A DNA stretch of 38,187 nt, taken from NCBI GenBank assembly GCA_945877035.1, contig CAMCQH010000014.1, forward strand, positions 1-38,187, given 5' to 3'. Below, one piece after another: positions 2,173 through 32,500 of this stretch; within the stretch, counting starts at the first letter, position 1; each line of letters begins with the position of its first letter. A program made the translations under genes and the position numbers. The notes below the pieces were generated by a model that was not told the origin of the DNA, made no database searches, and saw only the letters and a program-made list of their open reading frames with translations. The DNA comes from an uncultured Clostridium sp. (GTDB lineage Bacteria; Bacillota; Clostridia; TANB77; CAG-508).

Positions 2173-3273
2173 GTGATAAATATTAAGAGAATCGGTAATA
2201 TATTCGATAAAATATGTTCATACGAAAACATTAAAGAAGCTCATAAAATGGCTAGTAAAGATAAACAAGATTATACTGAAGTTGTAATGGTAAATAAAAA
2301 TCCTGATTATTTCATTAAAAGAATTCAAAAAATGTTAAAAGAAGGAACTTATACTATTACAAATAAAAATTATAAACATAAAGTTATAATTGATAATGGT
2401 AAAAGAAGAGACTTGTATAAATTATCTTACTATCCACACCGTATAATACAATGGGCTATAATTTTACAAATAGGAAAATATTTAGAAAAAAATTTTACTG
2501 TGGATACTTATTCTAGTATAAAAAATAGGGGTCTTCATACTGCAGCAATGGCAATAAGAAGAGATTTAGATGTATATCCAGAAAAAACTAAATATTGTCT
2601 TAAAATAGATATAACAAAATACTATCCTAGTATTGATAATAATATATTATTTGATAAATTAAAAAGAAAATTTAAAGATAAAAAATTATTAAATTTATTA
2701 CATATTATAATATTTTCTATGGGAGACAAAGGACAACCAATAGGTTCTTTATGGTCTCAATTTGCTGGGAATTTTTATTTATCAGAATTAGATCATTTAT
2801 TAAAAGAAAAATATGATGTTGAATTTTATTATAGATATTGTGATGATTTAGTAATATTATCTTCCGATAAAAATTTTTTACATAAAATTAGAGATACAAT
2901 ATTTTTTATTCTTAGTAATCTAAAATTAAACATGAAAAATAACTATCAAGTATTCAATGTTAAAAAAAGAGGAATTGATTTTTTAGGATATAGATTTTAT
3001 CCAAATTATACAATTTTAAGAAAAAGAACTTTAAATAATATGATTGCTAAAACTAAAAAATTAATTAACAAACCAATACTTAACTATTCTGATGTTTGTA
3101 CAATAGCTTCATACGTTGGAATATTAAAATATTGTAATGGATATAAATTATTTTGTAAATATATTAAACCATTCAATAATAAAAAAGCTAAAAATTGTAA
3201 TCAAGAATTAATATTGATAGACTTAAAATATAAACCATTTAAAAAGGATTGGTGTTATAATAAATGTATATAA
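2173..3273 (+). CDS. DGR reverse transcriptase
   Basis: 366 residues, the usual size of DGR reverse transcriptases. The N-terminus (IGNIFDKICSYENIKEAHK) matches the family opening, which supports the GTG start at 2173. Catalytic Asp146 lies in KIDITKYYPSID, the DGR-specific motif 4 reads IGSLWSQ (190-196), and the active-site box is YCDD (222-225), followed by a thumb motif GIDFLGYRFY. It copies the template RNA with errors at adenines, and the cDNA replaces the variable repeat. It overlaps the next gene by 10 bp. No Avd-type accessory protein is recognisable next to it. Confidence 0.95.
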   Translation: MINIKRIGNIFDKICSYENIKEAHKMASKDKQDYTEVVMVNKNPDYFIKRIQKMLKEGTYTITNKNYKHKVIIDNGKRRDLYKLSYYPHRIIQWAIILQIGKYLEKNFTVDTYSSIKNRGLHTAAMAIRRDLDVYPEKTKYCLKIDITKYYPSIDNNILFDKLKRKFKDKKLLNLLHIIIFSMGDKGQPIGSLWSQFAGNFYLSELDHLLKEKYDVEFYYRYCDDLVILSSDKNFLHKIRDTIFFILSNLKLNMKNNYQVFNVKKRGIDFLGYRFYPNYTILRKRTLNNMIAKTKKLINKPILNYSDVCTIASYVGILKYCNGYKLFCKYIKPFNNKKAKNCNQELILIDLKYKPFKKDWCYNKCI

Positions 3274-12252: not shown

Positions 12253-12441
12253 ATGGAAGTGGTAAATATTAAATACTTATTTAGAGATTATGATAACAAT
12301 AAATCTTTAAAAGATAATTTATTATCATATAGAAATATACCAAATAATTATAGAAAAGAAGAATTATATGGTATAAAAGATGCTATTAATAGAATTAAAA
12401 TAGCAATAGAAAATAAAGAAAAAATAGGAATTTTATCAGAT
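12253..12441 (+). CDS. recJ: recJ-like exonuclease, exon 1
   Basis: 63 codons ending ...KIGILSD. The unspliced frame meets a stop two codons later at 12447. Joining 12441 to 12697 gives ILSD-ADCDGINGCI, which restores the DxDxDG metal-binding motif I of DHH phosphoesterases, so 12441/12442 is the best 5' splice site. It ends with T, as group I introns require. The ATG lacks a good ribosome-binding site; GGAAGTGG at 12256 lies ahead of an ATT codon at 12268, a possible unusual alternative start. The full spliced protein is 540 residues, near the size of bacterial RecJ. Confidence 0.8.
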
Positions 12442-12696
12442 AAATAAGTGTCGTGTTATATAGAAATATATAATATTATAATTACTTAAATTGCTGGAAA
12501 ATCCTAAAGCTTAATATACTACAACAAAATTATAAATAATAATTGTGAAAGTTAAAAAAATATTAAGATAATAATGGACAATCAGCATCTAATACTCTAA
12601 TAGAGGAAAGTTCAGAGACTAAACAGGTAACCCTAAATTATTTAATAATATGGTGAAGATATAGTCCATTTTTATATGAAAGTATAAATATTAAAG
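12442..12696 (+). ncRNA. Group I intron 1 in recJ (no ORF)
   Basis: 255 nt with the group I core elements in order: P (AAATTGCTGGA, 12488-12498), Q (GACAATCAGCATC, 12578-12590), R (GTTCAGAGACTAAAC, 12610-12624) and S (AAGATATAGTCC, 12656-12667). GCTG of P pairs with CAGC of Q (P4), and GACTA of R with TAGTC of S (P7). It ends in G. The P1 pairing at the 5' site is weak (a GAT/GTC core across an 8-nt loop), so that boundary rests mainly on the reading frame. There is no homing endonuclease inside. Confidence 0.9.
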
Positions 12697-13686
12697 GCAG
12701 ATTGCGACGGAATAAATGGTTGTATAATTTTAATGAAAAATATGATTCCTATTAGTAAATGTATTCATTATATAGTTTGTGATAGAGATAATGGATATGG
12801 TATTATAAATAAATATTATAATGAAATGTCTAGATTAGGAATATCTTTAGTAATAACAACAGATATAGGAATATCTAATAAAGAAGAAATAGAATATGGA
12901 AAATCTTTAGGTATAGAAACAATTGTAACAGACCATCACCCTATTATAAATCCCCCTGATTGTATCTATATAAATCCTGAAGATTATAGAAATTATAATA
13001 TTACTAAATATTGTGGAGCTGGAGTTTCATACATTTTAATGAAAGAACTATATAAAGAATTAGGATTAGAATTTGATAAATATAAAATTTCATTATGTCA
13101 TGCTGGAATTGCTACAGTTGGAGACATGGTTCCTCTTATAGATAATAATTACATGTTAGTCAAAGAAGCATTAGAAGAATTTGAAAATTTAACTTATAAA
13201 AGTAAACCACTAAAATGGATTATAAACAATGGATTAAGTTATGTTAAAGATAGACCATATGTTTCTTCTGATATATCCTTTGGTATAGCACCTATGATAA
13301 ATTCATTACATAGAATGTCTCATCCTAGTAAGGCTGTAGAATTTTTCTTATCAAATGATAATGATTTTATAAATACATTAGGAAATTATATTAAAGAAAA
13401 TAATAATTTAAGAAAACAATTACAAAAAAAAGCTATAATTGAAGCATTATCGTTTTTACATAAAAATAATTTAAAAAATAAAGATTTTATATTTTTAGAT
13501 TTAGATGTTAAAAAAACTTTTGCTGGATTAGTAGCTTCTTTTATAACTTCAGATTACTTTAATAAACCATCTATTGTTGTAAGCAAAACAGATGGCGTTT
13601 ATTATGGTTCAGGACGTTCAATTCCAAATTGTAGTTTAGCTTCTTTAGTAAAAAATCTACAACCTTATTGCATAAGATGTGGTGGT
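12697..13686 (+). CDS. recJ: recJ-like exonuclease, exon 2 (DHH domain and part of DHHA1)
   Basis: 330 codons. They start with ADCDG, the second half of motif I, and continue through CDRDNGYGI, TTDIGI, the name-giving IVTDHHPI, CGAGVSYIL, ATVGDMVPLIDN and FGIAPMINSLHRM. The DHHA1-type region follows (TFAGLVASFI, GSGRSI) and ends at CGG. All the DHH catalytic motifs of RecJ are present in order. The enzyme would degrade single-stranded DNA 5' to 3' in repair, recombination or host DNA breakdown. Read without splicing, the frame ends after the same CGG at 13689 by a TAA that belongs to intron 2. Confidence 0.9.
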
Positions 13687-13922
13687 TAATTATGGCTACC
13701 CTATTTGTGAAAGCGAATAGTTAAAAATCCCTTAAATTGCTGGAACATCTTTAAGTTTAATATACTACAACGCAATTAGAAATAATAAACGTGAATAGTT
13801 AAAAAAATATTAAAATTAGACAATCAGCATCCAAATAACTTTATTAGTTAGAGGTTCAGAGACTATAATAGGGCATCGTATAGATGAAGGTATAGTCCAA
13901 TTTATATTGAAAAATATAAAAG
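13687..13922 (+). ncRNA. Group I intron 2 in recJ (no ORF)
   Basis: 236 nt. The core elements are P (AAATTGCTGGA, 13734-13744), Q (GACAATCAGCATC, 13819-13831), R (GTTCAGAGACTA, 13854-13865) and S (AAGGTATAGTCC, 13887-13898), with the same P4 and P7 pairings as intron 1. P1 is clear: exon GGTGGT pairs with intron GCTACC across an 8-nt loop, with the required U-G pair at the splice site. It ends in G. Long stretches match intron 1, so the two are paralogues. Splicing restores the GGH motif. Confidence 0.93.
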
Positions 13923-14366
13923 CATAATTCTGCAATGGGTTTAAGTTTTACTGAAGAAAATAAAAAAAATATAATCAATGAAATTGAAAAATTTTCATTA
14001 GAACAAAAAATAGAAGGAAATTTAGAACAAGAAGTTTTTATAGATAAAGAATTAAAAATAAAAGAAATTAATGAAAATTTAATAAAAGAAATTACTTCAC
14101 TAGAACCTTATGGAATGAATAATGCAACTCCTATATTTTATACAAAAGAATTACAAATAAGTAATATACAATGTATTAATTTTAATACTTATTTTATACT
14201 AGAAGAAGTTGGAGATTTTTTTAATTTCGAAGATAATGTAAGTTTTGAAGCTGTCTTTTTTAAAAGAGATTATGAGGGAATTTTAAATTGTGGAGACATA
14301 GTCAATATAATTTATGAATTAACTTCAGATGGAATAATGTTAATAAAAAATTTAGAAATAGTCTAA
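13923..14366 (+). CDS. recJ: recJ-like exonuclease, exon 3
   Basis: 147 codons beginning HNSAMGLSF. Together with the CGG at the end of exon 2 this makes GGHNSAMG, the conserved GGHxxAxG substrate-binding motif of DHHA1 domains. The remainder contains LEPYGMNNATPIF, the typical RecJ C-terminal signature, and a beta-rich tail resembling the OB domain. The stop is 4 bp ahead of the next gene, so the two are co-transcribed. Without splicing only an unproductive N-terminally truncated product could be made from the ATG at 13935. Confidence 0.9.
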   Translation, partial: HNSAMGLSFTEENKKNIINEIEKFSLEQKIEGNLEQEVFIDKELKIKEINENLIKEITSLEPYGMNNATPIFYTKELQISNIQCINFNTYFILEEVGDFFNFEDNVSFEAVFFKRDYEGILNCGDIVNIIYELTSDGIMLIKNLEIV

Positions 14367-22456: not shown

Positions 22457-23254
22457 ATGAATGTTGTATATATAAAACACTTTGATAATGGTAAAAAATA
22501 TGTAGGTATTACTAATAATTTTCAAAAAAGAATGAGTGATCATGAATATGATGCTAAACATGGAAGTCAACTACTAGTTCATTTTGCTATGAGAAAATAT
22601 TCCCATAAAACAGAAATTGTATTTGAATCGGAAAATTATGATGAAGTATTAGAAATGGAACGCATTATAATACAAAATTTTAAAGATTTAGGTATAGAAT
22701 TGTATAATATGACTGACGGATGGGAAGGTTCATTAGGTTATAAACATTCCGAAGAATCAAAACAAAAAATGAGATGTAATCGTCCAAGTATGTCAGGATA
22801 AAATCATCATATGTATGGTAAACATCATACAGATGAAACTAAGCAAAAAATTAGTAAAACTCTTAAAGATAAACATAAAAAATCATCAATGTATGGCAAA
22901 CATCATACGGAGGAAACTAAAAAACTTTTAAGTGAAATTAGAAAAGAAAAATATAGTGGAGAAAATCATCCTTGGTATGGAAAACATCATACAGAAGAAA
23001 GTAAAAAGAAAATTAGTGAAACGTTAAAAAATGGTAAATCTTACGGTTTTGGTAAATTTGGTTCTCTCAATTCTAATTCAAAACCTAAAAAACATTATGA
23101 AACCAAATCATGTTTTAGGAGTGAATTTAAAAAAATATGTAAAAATCAAGGATGGGATTTTGATGATTTTGAAGAAATTTTTGCAGAATGGAAATATACC
23201 AAAGATAAAAGATTAAGGAAATATTATTATAAATTTAAAGGAAGTGAAAATAAT
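22457..23254 (+). pseudogene. GIY-YIG homing endonuclease with an in-frame TAA
   Basis: The N-terminal GIY-YIG domain reads VVYIKHFDNGKKYVGITNNF with a following ERIIIQNF metal-site helix. NUMOD3 repeats of the form YGKHHTEETKKKIS come after it. A TAA at 22799-22801 interrupts the frame in the first repeat (SG-stop-NHH), where the third repeat has SGENHP, so one base change (GAA to TAA) explains it. The frame then resumes and has no stop before the dUTPase, into which it runs in frame. It is the type of free-standing endonuclease (SegE-like) that spreads in phages; the full enzyme is probably not made unless the TAA is read through. Confidence 0.85.
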
Positions 23255-23695
23255 ATGAATAAAGTTAAAATTAATATTATGTTAGAAAATGGAGTTGGAA
23301 AACCATTTTATGCTACATGTGGTTCAGTTGGAATGGATGTAAAAGCTAATATTAACGAACCAATTATATTAAAATCATTAGAAAGAAAATTAATTCCAAC
23401 AGGAATAAAAATGGAAATTCCAGAAGGATATGAAATACAAGTAAGACCAAGAAGTGGATTAGCTTTGAAACACGGTATTTCTATGGTAAATACACCTGGA
23501 ACAATTGATTCGGATTATCGTGGTGATATAGGAATTATTTTAATTAACTTAAGTAGCGAGGAATATATAATACATCCTCAAGAAAGAATTGCTCAATTGG
23601 TTCTTAACAAAGTAGAACAAATGGAATTAGTTGAAGTAGATTCATTATCAGATACAGAAAGAAACGCAAGTGGATTTGGAAGCACAGGTAAATAA
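23255..23695 (+). CDS. dut: dUTPase
   Basis: 146 residues from the ATG at 23255, which has its own AAGGAAGTG site; the frame is open upstream into the endonuclease. All five trimeric dUTPase motifs are present: GSVGMDVKA, RPRSGLALKHG, NTPGTIDSDYRGDI, QERIAQLVL and RNASGFGSTG. It converts dUTP to dUMP and pyrophosphate, keeping uracil out of phage DNA. It is 23 bp upstream of the Thg1-like gene. Confidence 0.95.
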   Translation: MNKVKINIMLENGVGKPFYATCGSVGMDVKANINEPIILKSLERKLIPTGIKMEIPEGYEIQVRPRSGLALKHGISMVNTPGTIDSDYRGDIGIILINLSSEEYIIHPQERIAQLVLNKVEQMELVEVDSLSDTERNASGFGSTGK

Positions 23696-31181: not shown

Positions 31182-32342
31182 ATGAAAACTTATAAGGTTG
31201 AAATAAAACTTACAGAAGAACAAATTAAAATAGTTGAAAATACTTCTAACGTATGCAGATTTTTATATAATGAAATGATTGCAACTAATCAATTAATATA
31301 TGATATGAGCAGACTTATTGGAAGTGAAAAATATTTTATGGATTCCAAAAAGTTTGATAAATATGTTAATAATGTTTTAAGTAATTATTCAATTATGACT
31401 TGGATAAAAACAGCTAATGGTAAATCAAGAAAACAGACTATGGTTTATTGCGAAAGAGCTTTTAAAAGATTTTTTAAAAAATAAGGTGGATTTCCAAGAT
31501 TTAAAAAGAAAAAAGAATTTTGTAGTGTATATTTACCGAAAAATAATAAAAAAGATTTTGAAATTAAAAGACATAAAGCTAAAATTCCAATATTGTCTTG
31601 GATAAGATTAAAAGAAAAAGGATATATTCCTAAAAATGCAGAAATTACATCTTGTACTATTACTAAAACAGCTAATAGATATTATGCATCATTTTTAACA
31701 AAAGATATAATTAAAGTAATTGATTGTGATAAAACAGATGGAATTGGTATTGATTTAGGTATAAAAGAATTAGCAGTTTGTTCAAATGGTAAGTTTTATA
31801 AAAATATTAATAAAAGCAGTAAAATTAAAAAATTAGAAAAGAAATTAAAAAGAAAACAAAAAAGTTTAAGTAGAAAATTTGAAAGTTTAAAATCAAGAAA
31901 GGAGAAAGCTACTCGTAAAAATATTGATAAAAACATATTGTCAATTCAGAAAATATATAACAAACTTTCAAATATAAGAACTGAATATACAAAAAATGTT
32001 GTAAATGAAGTGGTGAGAACCAAGCCTAAGTATATTACAATAGAAGATTTGAATATTTCAGCAATGAAAAAGAATAAGCATTTATCAAAATCTATTTCAG
32101 AACAAAAATGGTATTTCTTTAAAATATTTTTAATACAACAATGTATAAAATATGGAATTGAGGTTAGGTTGGCTAATAGAAAATTTCCTAGTTCTAAAAC
32201 TTGTAGTTGTTGTGGAAAAATAAAACAAGATTTAAAACTATCAGAGCGTACATATAAATGTGAATGTGGTTTAATTATAGATAGAGATTTGAATGCTAGT
32301 ATAAATCTTAAAAATTGTAAAAAGTATAAAATACTCACTTAA
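31182..32342 (+). pseudogene. tnpB: tnpB (RNA-guided nuclease) with a premature stop
   Basis: About 386 codons in one frame, interrupted only by TAA at 31482-31484 (FKRFFKK-stop-GGFPRFKKKK). The rest is intact. RuvC-type IGIDLGIKELA (Asp), ITIEDLNISAM (Glu) and the final DRDLNAS (Asp) supply the catalytic triad, and CSCCG...CECG a zinc finger. A start with an AAGGAAG site. With the TAA, only a 100-residue N-terminal piece is made, unless the stop is suppressed. In intact elements TnpB cuts DNA guided by the RNA from the element's right end. Confidence 0.87.
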
Positions 32343-32500
32343 AAGAGTTTTATGCTATGTACTCGTGGGCTAGACGAGGAATTTAAGGCTGTGGACTATA
32401 AACGTGTAAGTAGGCATACATTGTAGTATGTACAAAAGCATATAGGAAGAAACAGCAATAATTCTCAAATACATACATTTGTATATATTTTGAGTAGCAG
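32343..32500 (+). ncRNA. Probable omega RNA of the TnpB element
   Basis: Directly downstream of tnpB, non-coding sequence with paired segments (CTCGTGGGCTAGACGAG near 32361-32377, CATAC-ATTGTA-GTATG near 32416-32431, and the end hairpin at about 32465-32495). TnpB guide RNAs come from this position and carry the flanking sequence as guide. The limits are approximate. Confidence 0.5.

Follow-up and report, generated by a model that had tools for sequence, protein, structure and literature searches.

A gene caller applied to the window, a phage-like contig of 38,187 bases taken from an uncultured Clostridia metagenome bin, would see truncated RecJ pieces at positions 12253–14366 (open reading frames, ORFs, of 64, 318 and 143 codons) and miss the enzyme that these pieces would jointly encode. 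The question raised by this locus is whether the pieces belong to one gene and what it is that separates them. Very probably, they are the parts of a phage recJ-like gene split by two related group I introns that lack ORFs and are sister copies of one lineage, and splicing in phase 0 would yield a 540-residue protein.

Exons and reading frame of the split recJ gene

The exon boundaries (Table 1) agree exactly with intact homologues. When the three exons are aligned as separate fragments to 12 intact RecJ proteins, zero residues are lost or repeated: exon 1 extends to the first D of the DxDxDG motif, exon 2 runs from the next column to GG, and exon 3 starts from the H of GGHxxAxG. The joined frame comprises 540 codons and a stop, without a frameshift, and both joins are in phase 0. 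At the first join, GAT ends at 12441 and exon 2 continues from 12697, reading A-D-C-D-G; at the second join, GGT GGT ends at 13686 and exon 3 continues from 13923 with CAT, reading H-N-S-A-M-G. The initial annotation had placed one intron inside DxDxDG after the first Asp and the other inside GGHxxAxG between GG and H, and had proposed that their removal at sites ending in T and G restores a 540-residue RecJ-like protein with all motifs; the coordinates, the frame, the motifs and the fit to the homologues bear this out.

Exon 1 alone (63 amino acids) shows no Pfam or PHROG match. The other two exons match the same RecJ-like PHROG profile, phrog_2484, exon 2 at profile positions 72-402 (2.2e-51) and exon 3 at positions 410-537, so that the profile positions continue across the second join; Pfam DHHA1 is matched neither by exon 2 alone nor by exon 3 alone. 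The gene encodes a DHH domain in which the DxDxDG, DHH and GGH motifs can be aligned, together with a RecJ OB domain, and its product is predicted to be a RecJ-like DHH/OB single-strand DNA exonuclease.

Read on in the exon frame, both insertions run into a TAA stop, in intron 1 at its second codon and in intron 2 at its first. These stops rule out inteins. An unspliced message would be translated into 64 residues, ending at the second codon of intron 1 without any complete catalytic motif, so that exonuclease activity is expected to depend on both splicing events. Exon 2 begins with the DxDG codons still in place, ahead of its first ATG (12733); there would otherwise be no reason for their retention, which argues for the removal of intron 1.

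Core structure and splice sites of the two insertions

The initial annotation had also recognized the P, Q, R and S core elements, with P4 and P7 pairing, in both insertions, and had suggested a covariance-model scan as a check. All these elements are located (Table 1), with complementarity of P to Q (P4) and of R to S (P7) in each intron, and the scan recovers both insertions. With the Rfam model RF00028 (cut-off 50 bits), the E-value of intron 2 is 5.2e-10. A second covariance model, hereafter R1, was built from 24 other viral introns. The comparison introns behind it were collected from IMG/VR by a pattern search for R and S elements (73 stretches), from which 39 introns were extracted by requiring a P string; 34 of these were distinct and shorter than 330 nucleotides, and the 30 of at least 200 nucleotides, two of them from the window, were aligned. 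The alignment was trimmed, and six aligned introns were kept outside R1, namely the two from the window, one from the viral contig L145 (see below), L101, L110 and L126. The consensus fold of the 30 introns has 50 pairs, 41 of which show at least one pair-keeping double change. In the window, with E-values up to 10 admitted, R1 finds exactly two matches, the two recJ introns, each over the whole model; in the whole bin, it adds one match of 47.4 bits on contig C25.

Blastn searches against phage records match the intron cores to known phage introns (62 records for intron 1 and 66 for intron 2). In particular, the phage Twort nrdE intron is 76.1% identical to intron 1 over query positions 48-159 and 80.2% identical to intron 2 over positions 49-148. 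Given this likeness to Twort-type phage introns, both may belong to subgroup IA, a class with characteristic helices beside P7. Sense-strand ORFs of at least 30 codons are absent from both introns, and so is any homing endonuclease ORF; intron 1 contains no ORF of this length at all, and on the antisense strand, two ORFs (39 and 40 codons) overlap intron 2. Thus, the covariance models and the exon fit support the proposal that two group I introns are inserted at catalytic motifs of a RecJ-like gene.

The same observations bear on the possibility that the locus is a decayed gene, i.e., dead recJ fragments with intron-like remnants. This would accord with the presence of another recJ in the bin and with the weak P1 helix of intron 1 described below, but all three exons are open, the motif residues are kept, both cores are intact and there is no frameshift in 540 codons. 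Decay was rejected on the strength of the open exons, kept motifs and intact cores, and we consider it very improbable.

In both introns, the 5' splice site is preceded by U and the last intron base is G (T12441/G12696 and T13686/G13922). The joins were set by the in-frame D-x-D with T before the intron and G at its end, and for intron 1, the sole join found by eye is 12441|12697. In intron 2, the 3' exon strand of P10 (13923-13929, CAUAAUU) pairs with the intron strand at seven of seven positions, and when the exon ends were shuffled, the sum of P1 and P10 pairs was equalled in 2 of 5000 trials, or in none of 20000 with one bulge allowed in P1. The predicted splice sites of intron 2 are fixed by these two helices. 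Intron 1 has the same layout, with 14 bases followed by a P2 hairpin with a GAAA loop, but the guides of the two introns differ almost throughout. Among alternative splice sites of intron 1, the best offers 9 pairs at 12434/12682 and does not keep the frame; it was discarded.

Group I introns splice by guanosine attack, exon joining and release of the ribozyme. At this locus, each intron in the transcript would fold into a ribozyme, guanosine would attack after GAU in intron 1 and after GGU in intron 2, and the introns would be released after their terminal G. The exons would then join in phase 0, and the 540-residue product would have all metal-binding residues present.

Table 1. Features of the split recJ gene and its introns in the window
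Feature	Positions	Strand	Description
recJ exon 1	12253..12441	+	63 codons, the last being the first Asp of DxDxDG; placed on intact homologues
Group I intron 1	12442..12696	+	255 nucleotides; RF00028 34.5 bits, R1 96.9 bits, blastn to Twort nrdE intron
Intron 1 putative guide	12450..12455	+	GUCGUG; 3 contiguous exon pairs, or 5 with one bulge
Intron 1 P2 hairpin	12456..12473	+	UUAUAUA-GAAA-UAUAUAA; sequence and minimum-free-energy fold
Intron 1 P element	12489..12499	+	P4 5' side
Intron 1 Q element	12579..12589	+	P4 3' side
Intron 1 R element	12611..12621	+	GACUA 12617-12621 = P7 5'
Intron 1 S element	12656..12667	+	UAGUC 12662-12666 = P7 3'
recJ exon 2	12697..13686	+	330 codons: remainder of DxDxDG, DHH, other motifs, up to GG; Pfam DHH 1.1e-12
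Intron 2 P1	13681..13700	+	exon GGUGGU (13681-13686) with guide GCUACC (13695-13700), 6 bp, U.G at splice site
Group I intron 2	13687..13922	+	236 nucleotides; RF00028 50.2 bits, R1 117.5 bits, blastn to Twort nrdE intron
Intron 2 P10 5' strand	13688..13694	+	AAUUAUG with 3' exon, 7/7
Intron 2 P2 hairpin	13701..13720	+	GAAA loop; sequence and minimum-free-energy fold
Intron 2 P element	13735..13745	+	
Intron 2 Q element	13821..13831	+	
Intron 2 R element	13855..13865	+	GACUA 13861-13865 = P7 5'
Intron 2 S element	13887..13898	+	UAGUC 13893-13897 = P7 3'
recJ exon 3	13923..14366	+	147 codons plus stop, encoding HxxAxG and the OB domain; Pfam RecJ_OB 3.4e-14

Kinship of the introns and the standing of intron 1

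The cores of introns 1 and 2 are 86% identical over 107 nucleotides, and each is the closest to the other among the relatives found; over the whole length, 176 of the 231 aligned bases agree. The next-best cores (among the best 8 of the comparisons with 35 other cores) show 78.3% identity to intron 1 and 78.5% to intron 2. A search of viral contigs with an intron-specific pattern gave two matches, one in a terminase-like gene and the other at L215 (74 bits with R1); in genome contigs, the same pattern had no match. The intron in the terminase-like gene (the gene itself has a weak PHROG match to the terminase large subunit, 1.2e-8 at best) agrees with intron 2 at 88 of 108 positions (81.5%) and with intron 1 at 81 of 108, still less than the 86% between the two recJ introns. 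As sister copies, the two introns imply that one lineage colonised two sites of one gene, and we infer with moderate confidence, from the similarity of the cores, that recJ was colonised twice in this manner.

Several observations weigh against the overall explanation of two spliced sister introns. In a tree of 37 cores, the two introns are joined with a support of 97/54 (ultrafast bootstrap/SH-aLRT; of 12 fetched phage introns, three were excluded because they lacked the P string used and two more had no usable core), and the base make-up of both is flagged as unlike that of the other tree rows, so that AT-richness may inflate their likeness. With RF00028, intron 1 (E-value 2.6e-5) stays under the cut-off, and a whole-genome search with this model lists intron 1 and misses intron 2, with no match above the cut-off; cmscan does list intron 2, and the miss is presumably due to the first-look filter of the search tool. 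The P7 helix in the comparison introns is no independent evidence because it belonged to the collecting pattern. Finally, the P1 and P10 pairing of intron 1 is at chance level, with 3+2 contiguous pairs reached in 2479 of 5000 shuffles, or 5+2 pairs with one bulge in 7080 of 20000. The splice sites of intron 1 therefore rest on the frame, the motif, the T/G rule and the shared layout, and its putative guide is a bad fit to its site.

The last of these points raises the possibility that only intron 2 is active, intron 1 being a copy at an ill-fitting site that splices poorly or never, with phage RecJ mostly lost and host RecJ used in its place. Apart from the pairing at chance level, the longer tree branch of intron 1 (0.14 vs 0.038 for intron 2) and the intact recJ of the bin itself (L008, 578 codons) are in line with this scenario. 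On the other hand, the core of intron 1 scores 96.9 bits across the whole R1 model, its P1 reaches 5 pairs when a bulge is admitted, and exon 2 is open over 330 codons with the remainder of motif I intact, a part that could be translated as a continuation of exon 1 only after the removal of intron 1. On balance, the inactivity of intron 1 appears unlikely. Under the preferred reading, in which both introns splice, slow splicing could be tolerable for the phage because the bin has its own intact recJ, an idea that has been proposed for phage functions duplicated by the host (PMC3888941).

The similarity of the introns also allows for cross-splicing from the 5' site of intron 1 to the 3' site of intron 2, whereby exon 2 would be skipped and an in-frame protein of 210 residues, consisting of just the ends and the OB domain, would be made. 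All three exons are in phase 0, as this requires, and two reports provide precedents: exon skipping between similar introns in Twort (PMC3073962) and the SIOphi polymerase gene, where an exon is skipped in more than 47.2% of the transcripts (PMC11878797). Two phase-0 joins are not rare by chance, however, and the guides are almost wholly different, so that neither intron is predicted to recognize the 5' site of the other. Such skipping is, in our estimate, a shade less likely still than an inactive intron 1.

A bolder scenario concerns the origin of the pair. Intron 1 might have arisen by transposition from intron 2, or from the parent of both, and be seen here soon after its arrival at a site that its guide does not yet fit. 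The transfer could have occurred via RNA (reverse splicing and copying, perhaps aided by the reverse transcriptase encoded in the diversity-generating retroelement of this phage) or via DNA (through a trans-acting GIY-YIG endonuclease, for which the phage has a frame that contains a stop). Two unequal ribozymes would then govern how much RecJ is made, and the in-frame, exon-skipped 210-residue protein would be a by-product. This order of colonisation is speculative, and we regard the scenario as a whole as improbable. Sister introns in one gene, one with a perfectly paired guide and one without, make the spread of ORF-less introns to new sites a testable matter.

Other recJ genes, related systems and the surroundings of the locus

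One further intron-bearing recJ was identified. The viral contig L145 (IMGVR_UViG_3300043003_000019), which came from the 73 pattern stretches collected irrespective of recJ, carries a group I intron (84.9 bits) in a phage-type recJ, where it separates the D of the DHH motif from the two His residues. The insertion is in phase 0, with a P1 of 7 bp and a P10 of 4 bp (equalled in 3 of 5000 shuffles). This gene thus resembles the recJ of the window in its kind, in the class of its intron, in the placement at a catalytic motif and in the phase, but the site is different and the intron core is not close to those of the window in the tree. L145 also bears another group I intron, which lies in the gene of a DnaB-like helicase (L145:2823-3114).

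A comparable break at another recJ motif in a separate contig also bears on the trivial explanation that an assembly error or a chimera made the breaks. The contig does come from a metagenome bin, but the exact exon fit, the coherence of two ribozymes, the pairing of intron 2 P1 and P10 with both flanks, and L145 led us to reject this explanation, the probability of which we consider negligible.

Among 58 recJ loci (50 from IMG/VR and 8 of 74 phage records), 57 have an uninterrupted ORF across both sites, and R1 detects nothing credible in these loci (two weak matches, with E-values of 0.5 and 0.91). A wider tblastn search, with 60 of 132 records listed, gives 35 matches that span both sites (query residues 83 and 420), 34 of them in one piece; the remaining one, MT839274, falls short of the expected length instead of exceeding it, which rules out an intron. 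The other 25 listed matches cover just one of the sites, beginning past the first or ending ahead of the second, and are informative on that site only. In the exception among the 58 loci, the phage recJ at L042:2677-4440, a single in-frame TGA lies inside DxDxDG (DYDV-stop-VDG), with apparently six extra bases at the motif; this may be a sequencing error, decay or recoding. Another phage recJ has a HEARO RNA nearby (L041:5823-6052, 124.6 bits).

Additional scans extended this coverage. A single-protein scan of viral contigs with exon 2 produced 7 pattern matches, among which no relative was confirmed. Scans for introns sited at D|xDxDG, GG|H and D|HH yielded 8, 4 and 16 stretches, respectively; the D|HH scan found L145 again, and the 27 new loci (L164-L190) have no match to the RecJ hidden Markov model (HMM). 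Four of these loci (L165, L168, L170 and L171) contain intron-core-like sequences followed by the reading YDGDTVSLR, which, judged by eye, resembles the metal-binding motif in the beta' subunit of phage RNA polymerases. A search of 385 genomes from the bacterial order for near relatives of the phage RecJ (E-value of 1e-50 or lower) gave the genome of the window alone. R1 matches 5 of 287 genomes of the order, that of the window included, with 7 new loci that lack a RecJ HMM match. Among plasmids, 101 records have RecJ relatives, all with less than 60% identity.

The three insertion sites are among the most conserved in the protein. They rank 11, 1 and 1 (tied top) of 567 junctions by the conservation of the two flanking residues when 70 RecJ proteins are aligned, of which 52 are from phages (what remains of the 58 loci after removal of L042, identical copies and short HMM spans) and 18 from bacteria of the order. 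None of 100,000 random site triples is as conserved, or 34 of 100,000 when six residues are averaged, although these are small numbers, with two of the sites in one gene. It is established that group I introns tend to be inserted at sites where the protein is conserved (Swithers 2009, PMC2814812). By the present evidence, recJ would join the phage genes colonised by group I introns; the two phages provide three sites, all of which fall within invariant metal-binding motifs.

The usual hosts of phage introns are genes for polymerases, ribonucleotide reductases and terminases (Hausner 2014, PMC3984707; Weglewska 2025, PMC11878797), and an account of crAss-like phages describes introns in the genes for MCP (major capsid protein), PolB, primase and others (PMC7886860). 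A literature search, subscription papers and the annotation of sequences elsewhere excepted, turned up no previous description of recJ with a group I intron; two phage papers, in the text available, mention both RecJ and introns and do not link them (PMC3888941 and PMC7685451). Hence recJ is likely, though not certainly, a new host gene for group I introns. The preference for conserved sites and the presence of similar introns within one phage gene are already known; the unusual traits are recJ as the host, the sister copies, the one misfit guide and the recurrence at another motif in another phage.

The nrdE introns of Twort reportedly self-splice, as stated in the title of a 2002 paper by Landthaler. 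In the record AF485080, nrdE is annotated in three pieces, with the HNH endonuclease I-TwoI, and the matching nrdE intron shares its core with those of the window (75.7% with intron 1 and 78.5% with intron 2, over 107 nucleotides). The window differs in the host gene, recJ, in the insertion sites, and in having introns of 255 and 236 nucleotides without an endonuclease. Twort also has a gene that is host to several similar introns and in which exons are skipped (PMC3073962). That gene is a tail-tube gene, for which spliced RNA has been demonstrated (PMC11878797), whereas the window has two copies in recJ, known from the sequence. The Bastillevirinae introns described in PMC11878797 are mostly IA-like and located in DNA-metabolism genes, some of which have two or three, with splicing in 8 of the 9 tested genes; there, the gene families do not include recJ and a homing nuclease is present in 32 of 45 introns, unlike either intron of the window. 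The phage of the window has a TnpB-like gene, which recalls IStrons, the combination of a group I intron with an insertion sequence (PMC4227781). The recJ introns are not IStrons because neither contains a transposase, and this candidate was ruled out.

The contig that constitutes the window (C14) encodes tail and tail-fibre proteins, RNase H, dUTPase and a Thg1-like protein besides the RecJ-like protein, as identified with PHROG and Pfam. It probably holds just part of the phage genome. The bin to which it was assigned is a metagenome-assembled genome of an uncultured member of the Clostridia, 1.70 Mb in size and about 80% complete, and as judged from the binning, the phage may infect this bacterium. 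The listed matches to the intact RecJ of the bin (80 of 114) come from uncultured Clostridia, and some of these genomes are named after gut samples. Two other group I-like elements were noticed in the bin. The first, at about 6330-6640 of L005 (41 bits, under the cut-off), lies, by eye, inside an apparent tRNA gene; ARAGORN reports no tRNA, as may occur with an intron of such size. The second, a third weak RF00028 match in the bin (G000 contig C2:117426-117615, L003; 32.7 bits), is missed by R1.

The window also contains a diversity-generating retroelement, with a variable repeat (VR) at 1549-1655, a template repeat (TR) at 1832-1938 and the reverse transcriptase gene downstream at 2173-3273. 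The VR forms the 3' end of a tail-protein gene and is an 82% repeat of the template; all 19 mismatches between VR and TR fall at template adenines (18 A to G and 1 A to T). At 22457-23695, a GIY-YIG/NUMOD3 endonuclease frame with an in-frame stop at about 22800 continues open into a dUTPase domain, so that the endonuclease looks fused to the N-terminal side of the dUTPase. The TnpB-like (IS605 OrfB) gene is in two pieces at 31182-32342, 17 kb from the recJ introns, and is directly followed by a RAGATH-18 RNA at 32388-32458 (45.6 bits, cut-off 44.9), a position that suggests a link between this RNA family and TnpB.

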